A stretch of 64,000 nt of DNA, taken from the NCBI GenBank assembly GCA_028293765.1, contig JAQGOG010000001.1, positions 21,522 to 85,521 of the forward strand, in the 5' to 3' direction. Under the pieces are notes generated by a model. The model did no database searches, was not told the origin of the DNA, and saw only the letters and a program-made list of their open reading frames with translations. This stretch comes from Gammaproteobacteria bacterium. Its GTDB lineage: Bacteria; Pseudomonadota; Gammaproteobacteria; Steroidobacterales; Steroidobacteraceae. The position numbers and the translations under genes were made by a program. The first letter of the stretch is position 1; every line of letters starts with the position of its first letter. Positions 18,541 through 44,147 of this stretch are shown piece by piece.

Positions 18541-18560
18541 CGTTATTTATTGGCACGCGG

Positions 18561-18643
18561 GCTGGGCGCCCCGGCAAAAGGCGTGACGTCCGCGAGTACG
18601 TCAGTTCAGGTGGGCATACGGGCAAAAGGCGTGGCTTTTTGCC
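18561..18643 (+). repeat. Dispersed structured repeat, copy A (two tandem half-copies)
   Basis: Two sub-copies contain GCAAAAGGCGTG. In the first, GGCGTG leads into a perfect hairpin TGACGT/ACGTCA (18584-18603). In the second, GGCAAAA (18621-18627) pairs with TTTTGCC (18637-18643) and GGCGTGG lies in the loop. The lead-in GCTGGGCGCCCC is shared with copy B at 36393. It lies between the kinase gene and the first PilT-like gene. Confidence 0.6.
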
Positions 18644-18655
18644 GAGGCGCCTCAG

Positions 18656-18716
18656 CCCGCGAGCGTTCCGATTCGTGGCGCGGGACCGCTCGCGGGCGGG
18701 TTTTCGGCCCCCCGCC
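18656..18716 (+). terminator. Inverted repeats after the kinase gene
   Basis: A perfect 10-bp inverted repeat CCCGCGAGCG/CGCTCGCGGG (18656-18665 with 18687-18696) runs into a second stem GGCGGG/CCCGCC (18695-18716) with TTTT in its loop. It may terminate kinase transcription, though no terminal T-run follows. TAGACT at 18720-18725 just beyond could be a -10 for the next gene. Confidence 0.35.
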
Positions 18717-35727: not shown

Positions 35728-36333
35728 ATGAATCCGCTCAACAACCATCGCCAGTCCCTGATTCTGGGCATCATTCTCGCGCTGCTGCTTGCTGTGGGGA
35801 TCGGCGGTACCCATTTCAACCCGCAGGGGCTGGCACGCTGGTTCCACATCGTCTCGGGCGTCTTCTGGATCGGACTGCTGTACTACTTCAACGTTGCCCA
35901 GACCCCGGCCATGGCTGACGCCGCCGCCGACAAGGGTGGACCGGGGGGCGCAGCGATCAATAAGTATGTGGCCCCGCGCGCCCTGTTCTGGTTCCGCTGG
36001 ACGGCCCTGGCAACCTGGTTGGGCGGCGCCTGGCTGCTGGGACCGAAGTTCGTGAGCGCGTTTACCTTCGGCGCGGGCCTCGACGATCCGACGCACTACT
36101 ACCTCATCATCGGCATCGGCGCCTGGCTCGGCACGATCATGCTGCTGAACGTCTGGGGCGTGATCTGGCGGGCCCAGAAAAAGATCCTCGGCATCGTGCC
36201 CGCGAGCGACGAGGAGAAGGCCAAGGCGCGGCGGGTGGCCCTGCTGGCCTCGCGCACGAACTTCGTGCTGTCGATCCCGATGCTGATGTGCATGGCTTCG
36301 GCGAGTCACGGCCTGCCTTTTTTTAACGGCTGA
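35728..36333 (+). CDS. PuuD/urate-oxidase-N-like integral membrane protein
   Basis: Begins at ATG 35728, with GGGAG 9 nt upstream; the ORF track's 35614 start adds unrelated residues. The 201-residue product has about four to five hydrophobic helices. It shows the pattern LARWFHIVSGVFWIGLLYYFNVAQTP, PRALFWFRWTALATWLGGAWLLG, YLIIGIGAWLGTIMLLNVWGVIWRAQKK and RTNFVLSIPMLMCMASASH. This resembles the membrane half of PuuD-type urate hydroxylase (Urate_ox_N), where His residues may bind haem. The C-terminal cytochrome c part is absent, so a urate activity is doubtful. It overlaps the first hairpin of repeat B. Confidence 0.68.
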   Translation: MNPLNNHRQSLILGIILALLLAVGIGGTHFNPQGLARWFHIVSGVFWIGLLYYFNVAQTPAMADAAADKGGPGGAAINKYVAPRALFWFRWTALATWLGGAWLLGPKFVSAFTFGAGLDDPTHYYLIIGIGAWLGTIMLLNVWGVIWRAQKKILGIVPASDEEKAKARRVALLASRTNFVLSIPMLMCMASASHGLPFFNG

Positions 36334-36474
36334 AAGGCGCCCGGGACGGGCGCTTTCAGCGAGCGCGCTGCAGGGGGGTTCGGGCTCGCGAGCTGGGCGC
36401 CCCCAGCAAAAGGCGTGGCTTTTGCTCGCGAACAGCAGGCCGGTTGTGGCGATAGGGCGTTTTTTGCTGGGGGC
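36329..36474 (+). repeat. Dispersed structured repeat, copy B, upstream of nadC
   Basis: Three nested elements. First, GCTGAAAG..CGCTTTCAGC hairpin (36329-36360), including the stop of the preceding gene. Second, AGCAAAAG/CTTTTGCT hairpin (36405-36426) with GCGTGG in the loop. Third, a 13-bp inverted repeat GCCCCCAGCAAAA (36399-36411) with TTTTGCTGGGGGC (36462-36474), which competes with the second. It ends 20 nt before the nadC ATG. Copy C at 44023-44147 shares the same order of parts. Confidence 0.7.
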
Positions 36475-43811: not shown

Positions 43812-44022
43812 GCGCTTCGGGAAGGGCTTACGGGCTTCGCCACAGCACGCAGCCAGTATGCATAGCGGCGCGACGACGCGCCGAGGAAGAGGATTACGTT
43901 TTTCAAGGGCGCGAAGTTTCCGTCGAAAAGCCCCTCAGGCGCAAACGCACGCCCTGTGCGGCCTCTGGCCTGCGAGTCAATCCCTCGTACGAGACACCCT
44001 GCAGCGCCTGCTGAGCTTACGG

Positions 44023-44147
44023 GCTGAAAGTCGCCTGGCGGCGCTTTCAGCGAGCGCGCCGACATAAGGGTTCTGGCCCCCGGCAAAAGGCGTGGCTTTT
44101 GCTCGCGAAAAGCAGGGCGGTTAAGGGGCGCTGACCTCACCGGGGCC
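44023..44147 (+). repeat. Dispersed structured repeat, copy C, upstream of the P450 gene
   Basis: GCTGAAAGTCGCC/GGCGCTTTCAGC hairpin (44023-44051) comes first. GGCAAAAG/CTTTTGCT (44082-44103) with GCGTGG in the loop follows. An enclosing inverted repeat GGCCCCCGG (44075-44083) pairs with CCGGGGCC (44140-44147), with one bulged base. The order and spacing match copy B, although the enclosing arms differ in sequence. It ends 39 nt before the P450 ATG. Confidence 0.7.

Follow-up and report, generated by a model that had tools for sequence, protein, structure and literature searches.

We detected a family of small repeats, about 100-170 nt long, present in about 90 copies in the genome studied and patchily distributed in Steroidobacteraceae, that is probably (at odds of roughly three in four) a family of non-autonomous mobile elements. 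The assignment to the broad class of small interspersed non-autonomous mobile repeats is based on the short length of the element, its multiple copies and its insertion polymorphism at orthologous sites. The starting point was a 64,000-nt stretch of DNA (the window, G000:C109:21522-85521), part of a 6.64-Mb genome in 211 contigs (G000), in which an initial annotation had singled out three copies of a structured element (A, B and C).

The three copies and their hairpins are present where they had been noted, next to genes for a T2SSE/PilT-type ATPase, nadC and a P450, and the covariance model R1 scores all of them (Table 1). The differences between the hairpin arms are also correct (GGCAAAA/TTTTGCC in copy A, AGCAAAAG/CTTTTGCT in copy B and a G-T wobble in copy C), as are the GCTGAAAG/CTTTCAGC hairpin common to copies B and C and the divergent orientation of the gene 5' of copy C. 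In copy A, the start of the hairpin named P3 in Table 1 is seen twice (18574 and 18622). The enclosing inverted repeat does not hold up as a shared feature, since arms of at least 8 bp occur in 9% of 32 copies versus 4.5% after shuffling. Its perfect 13-bp version in copy B (36399-36474) dominates the predicted fold, in competition with P3; two exclusive folds are thus limited to copy B and do not extend to the family. Copy B also provides (at 36320-36336) the TGA that now closes the frame of the urate-oxidase-N-like gene, and the stop that relatives have a few codons earlier is gone.

Table 1. Features of the repeat family: copies A, B and C (positions in the window) and copies beside tRNA genes in four MAGs (locus:position).
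Feature	Position	Strand	Remark
Copy A, degenerate, two partial P3 starts	18544..18664	+	R1 23.9 bits, E 4e-6
Copy A, P3 hairpin (GGCAAAA...TTTTGCC)	18621..18643	+	
Copy B, near-complete, between urate-oxidase-N-like gene and nadC	36320..36445 (R1 match 36320..36448)	+	R1 75.4 bits
Copy B, P2 hairpin	36329..36360	+	
Copy B, P3 hairpin (AGCAAAAG GCGTGG CTTTTGCT)	36405..36426	+	
Left arm of inverted repeat, copy B only (GCCCCCAGCAAAA)	36399..36411	+	direct reading; not conserved in family
Right arm of inverted repeat, copy B only (TTTTGCTGGGGGC)	36462..36474	+	direct reading; in predicted minimum-energy fold
Copy C, near-complete, T-rich 5' boundary to GGCGGTT	44014..44122 (R1 match 44014..44125)	+	R1 105.8 bits
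Copy C, P2 hairpin (GCTGAAAG...CTTTCAGC)	44023..44051	+	
Copy C, P3 hairpin (GGCAAAAG GCGTGG CTTTTGCT)	44082..44103	+	outer G-T wobble
tRNA-adjacent copies	L056:5838 (Trp); L085:4467 (Lys); L120:2514 (Val); L134:627 (Val)		

Further copies exist across the genome. The 12-mer core GCAAAAGGCGTG was found at 23 sites in G000, compared with none for the reversed control, and alignment of the neighbourhoods showed that 22 of these are parts of one larger element. The remaining site (L021) is probably a chance match, which on direct reading resembles the coding sequence of an aconitase-type gene. Using R1, we obtained 109 matches at E<=0.01 in G000 and, after dropping opposite-strand shadows, at least about 90 sense matches, some of them in tandem; with 150 candidates scored, this count is a lower bound. 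The element consists of two adjacent hairpins in fixed order, P2 (GCTGAAAG..CTTTCAGC) and then P3 (GCAAAAG GCGTGR CTTTTGC), with the consensus TTnnTTnATTGGCTGAAAGnCGCC-loop-GGCGCTTTCAGCgagcgcgcc...GGCCCGCGAGCAAAAGGCGTGGCTTTTGCTCGCGaaaagcaGGCCGGTT. Its 5' boundary is T-rich (5' profile of 54 copies, TTnnTTnATTGGC) and its 3' tail is variable, with at least two kinds of ending (...AGGGCGTT or ...GGGGAATCCATATTCATT). An optional module, GGGCTnnGCGCCCC, is present zero to four times per copy and was found 19 times near elements versus once elsewhere (0.6 Mb sampled). Minimal versions, in which P3 follows P2 without a spacer, were seen in four loci (L125, L126, L117 and L162; in tandem in L125). 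The contig ends L001 (C17 1-1677) and L006/L007 (C98 1-1786) are nearly identical in sequence; each has a copy of the element, one a second copy in tandem, and the assembly probably broke at the repeat here.

Covariation is strong and supports both hairpins. In 95 natural copies from G000 and relatives, aligned by fitting them to the covariance model, standard pairs occupy 95.7% of the cells; the alignment leans toward the model because it was fitted to it, but the effect is nevertheless large. Double changes were detected in 21 of 23 pairs and in 172 cells, versus 29.9 cells in column shuffles, and sliding the partners by 1-3 columns leaves 12-32 such cells. Both helices covary (12 pairs in P2 and 11 in P3). 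The AAA/TTT block of P2 and the AAAA/TTTT block of P3 are mostly constant, and this conservation as sequence suggests that their letters may be recognised.

Comparison with relatives showed that copies entered pre-existing gene junctions. Between parE and parC (names given from reading the sequence, without a family search), the gap is 0-6 nt in 11 of 11 relatives examined, and G000 has an insert of about 170 nt that begins directly 3' of the conserved parE stop. At a second site (C208:22570), three relatives have no element (G004, G005 and G049, the last a close one), and in G000 the stop codon is at its native place. The nadC junction measures 2-60 nt between aligned ends in most of the relatives that align on both sides, the exceptions being L211 and L218 (101-110 nt without a visible element) and L219 (72 nt). 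At this junction the closest relative, G049 (84% identity), has a decayed copy in common with G000, and at the site of copy C it retains a remnant only. Since the nadC copy is shared with G049 and C208:22570 is empty there, insertions both pre-date and post-date the split of the two genomes. The activity may be old, because the copies have diverged and at least one is vertically shared with G049. Regarding classical MITE features, the ends (AATTGGC/GCCGGTT) form a candidate terminal helix that is paired in 83% of cells versus 16-49% when slid, pairs only with T-G wobbles and barely varies. No terminal inverted repeat of the usual length is apparent, and a target duplication is not definable from the empty sites (parE-parC and C208:22570).

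The copies are intergenic and biased toward convergent gene pairs. Genes near 90 matches were called with a home-made codon-usage finder, for which stops are firm and starts soft; one match lies mostly within a predicted gene, though 86% of the sampled DNA is coding. Relative to the element, the upstream and downstream genes are same/opposite in 25 cases, opposite/opposite in 27, same/same in 20 and opposite/same in 10. Convergent gene pairs are favoured over divergent ones (25 vs 10), and co-directional pairs show no orientation preference (20 vs 27, P = 0.38). These counts bear on the proposal of a riboswitch-like cis-regulatory RNA that would be part of the downstream gene's 5' UTR and switch between two exclusive folds. 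All three window copies do face their downstream gene, and copy B has the perfect 13-bp alternative arm. Genome-wide, however, the downstream gene is opposite in 57 cases and same in 31, so a rule of facing the downstream gene falls. The alternative arm is not conserved, and Rfam 15 gave no match at the gathering threshold for the window copies (for copy B also at a permissive one) or at the element positions in eight further loci. We regard such a switch as very improbable.

Placement relative to genes is non-random, as had been anticipated, but what it follows is the upstream gene's border and not the start of the downstream gene. We scored the 5' end in the 58 copies that reach 40 bits and have both neighbours. 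Where the upstream gene is co-directional, the 5' end lies within 8 nt of the stop codon or overlaps it in 22 of 31 copies (expected 7.1). None of the remaining copies is at 9-48 nt from a same-strand stop and five are at 52-86 nt, several of these visibly right behind a terminator T-run. Where the upstream gene is divergent, the 5' end is 9-28 nt from the predicted start in 13 of 27 copies (P = 0.0004). The 3' end shows no preference for gene borders in the same 58 copies, a measurement that is blurred because the 3' tail is variable. For copies in other genomes, the distance to the stop is at most 8 nt in 26 of 34 (expected 14.8), and about half of them have the stop in one fixed register. 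In four of four model matches adjacent to tRNA genes, from four MAGs, 1-2 nt separate the start of the match from the 5' end of a divergent tRNA gene (Table 1), hence the rule concerns the gene border rather than the stop codon as such. The 5' end thus adjoins borders of several kinds: stop codon, terminator, divergent tRNA 5' end and divergent gene start region. A preference for T-rich targets was rejected as a sufficient cause of stop abutment, as a target model trained on the same sites predicts 2.6 stop-abutting copies among the 58 versus 22 seen. We also rejected an intrinsic terminator, since no T-run is conserved after P2 or P3 and several copies sit behind ordinary terminators.

The hairpins could also be kept by an RNA function. 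In one such account, the element would be a structured RNA of 3' UTRs that is selected behind stop codons (stabilisation, ribosome release or processing) and spread by rare duplication, not selfishly. Its 5' end does occur at same-strand stops far above chance, with a polarity that neutral tolerance does not obviously explain, and the covariation of its pairs is strong; moreover, REPs at most 15 nt from a stop codon have been reported to reduce translation (PMC12306157). However, 27 of the 58 copies have a divergent upstream gene and hence no preceding stop, the tRNA-adjacent copies abut the 5' end of the tRNA, and many relatives are wholly without the element. We consider this account unlikely.

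For the favoured reading, a mobile repeat, no resident mobiliser emerged among the candidates searched. The RAYT/Y1 profiles (PF01797 and NF047646) have no match in G000, and PF01797 is also absent from 10 of 11 other carriers searched. The sole match among these (G015, L054) sits in a 3.4-kb locus that contains no element copy, and the IS200-like loci L054 and L055 were rejected as a source because they have no element copy and their ends look different. A RAYT above the curated cut-off was found only in G024, which has no copies, and weak matches in G011, G028, G044 and G048 do not track copy number; RAYT/Y1 transposases were thus discarded as resident mobiliser, their presence not following the carriers. 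Reverse transcriptases (group IIC-like), considered because insertions sit behind terminators, were discarded as well, as they show no link with copy number and none was found in, for example, G002, G039, G049 and G052. We saw no longer, autonomous version, and every exact P2-pattern site in G000 lies within a known element.

The initial annotation had suggested a REP-like mobile repeat, which agrees with the family in kind (many copies, polymorphic insertions, intergenic location, structure and convergent bias) but not with REP proper. A true REP/BIME family mobilised by RAYT would account for high-copy intergenic palindromes near stop codons with a convergent bias; it is hardly credible given that both profiles find nothing in G000, that the only RAYT above cut-off is in the copy-free G024, and that the element has no GTAG/GTGG head and combines two dissimilar hairpins in fixed order.

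Doubtful, too, is a minimal IS200/IS605-derived element with P2 as the left-end hairpin, P3 as the right-end hairpin and a TTnAT target kept on the 5' side. Members of this group target TTAC (IS608) or TTGAT (ISDra2). The two hairpins in fixed order with a similar AAA(A)G/CTTT(T) core, the T-rich TTnAT motif on the 5' side only and the TTGA-T stop codons at insertion points are consistent with such an origin. The lack of a Y1 transposase in G000 and nearly all other carriers searched argues against it, as does the absence of strand bias relative to GC skew (replication), and a 5' target motif alone fails to explain the abutment to stop codons.

Outside G000, the repeat family is patchy within Steroidobacteraceae. 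Using P3 (20 nt, one mismatch allowed), we found 1-32 sites in 24 of 58 genomes of the genus, and many genomes have none. Among 84,980 species' genomes scanned for exact P3, matches come from Steroidobacteraceae, proteobacterial MAGs, two Halothiobacillus contigs and one Martelella contig, with about one chance match expected (an estimate) at this pattern length; they include subfamilies of the same layout with other P2 stems. Viral contigs contain no exact core and plasmids gave no match. Among the matches listed from open-access literature, searched by core sequence and by topic, none describes the repeat, and the family is apparently unreported so far, judging by these texts and Rfam 15.

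A separate repeat of four hairpins was detected in Steroidobacter/Peristeroidobacter (L061, L064, L067, L088, L091, L097, L104, L114, L122, L128, L131-L133, L135 and others) and in Halothiobacillus (L099 and L112). Two of its hairpins have (A/G)TCC loops, stem differences between the genera compensate each other, and Rfam gave no match where scanned. It shares with the window family the P3 hairpin AAAAGGCGTGACTTTT and the presence of another hairpin before it, and differs in the (A/G)TCC loops of its other hairpins and in having no GGCTGAAAG P2. Because this set was found through identical P3, only the other hairpins count as evidence. The two families may be akin.

The mobile repeat may work as follows. 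A transposase or another enzyme, acting in trans, would recognise the conserved AAA(A)/TTT(T) blocks of P2 and P3 in the folded single strand and would join the 5' end of the element to a T-rich site. Selection would then retain those insertions that leave genes and their signals intact. When a copy follows a stop codon, the terminating ribosome would be no more than about 10 nt from the first hairpin of the transcript, which makes REP-like effects on mRNA stability or translation plausible as side effects. Selection alone would lead to tolerance beside stops in either orientation, and the polarity therefore calls for another cause: insertion may be directed, the sense RNA may have an effect, or the 5' end of the element may be sharper than its 3' end. 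It is improbable, though worth stating, that 5' abutment reflects the insertion mechanism itself, with delivery to the edges of translated or transcribed stretches; a folded single-strand or RNA intermediate that engages DNA opened there is one example. If true, this would be a way of choosing targets that is not known among small bacterial repeats.

The one-sided hugging of gene borders is the most interesting feature of the family. As the 5' end is sharp against gene borders and the 3' end is not, the question of whether repeats come to lie behind stop codons through directed insertion or through selection becomes testable. The results add to Steroidobacteraceae a repeat family that is backed by covariation and whose insertions at known gene pairs (parE-parC and the nadC junction) can be mapped onto the tree, and they warn annotators not to take single copies for riboswitches.

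The family is best grouped with BOX, ERIC and REP as elements of one kind. ERIC is a 127-bp repeat of enterobacteria and vibrios that forms one imperfect palindrome. It resembles our repeat in its similar size and in being intergenic, non-autonomous and structured, and its single palindrome differs from the two-hairpin layout found here. Palindrome-associated elements derived from IS200/IS605 are alike in their two end hairpins and a T-rich target motif on the 5' side only, unlike our family in that nearly all carriers searched are without a Y1 transposase. REP/BIME are high-copy intergenic palindromes with complementary changes, often close behind stop codons (PMC2817692, PMC12306157), all of which applies to the present repeat, whereas the latter is longer, has no GTAG-type head and no RAYT, and has two different hairpins in fixed order. 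The BOX, RUP and SPRITE repeats of Streptococcus pneumoniae are enriched between convergent genes (PMC3049150). BOX, compared here by description, belongs to a different phylum and has been reported with terminal inverted repeats and target duplications (PMC3049150), neither of which is shown for our repeat. Both are modular, mostly shorter than about 200 nt, strongly folded as RNA, interspersed and biased toward convergent genes (PMC3049150), and the optional tandem module of BOX has its counterpart in GGGCTnnGCGCCCC.
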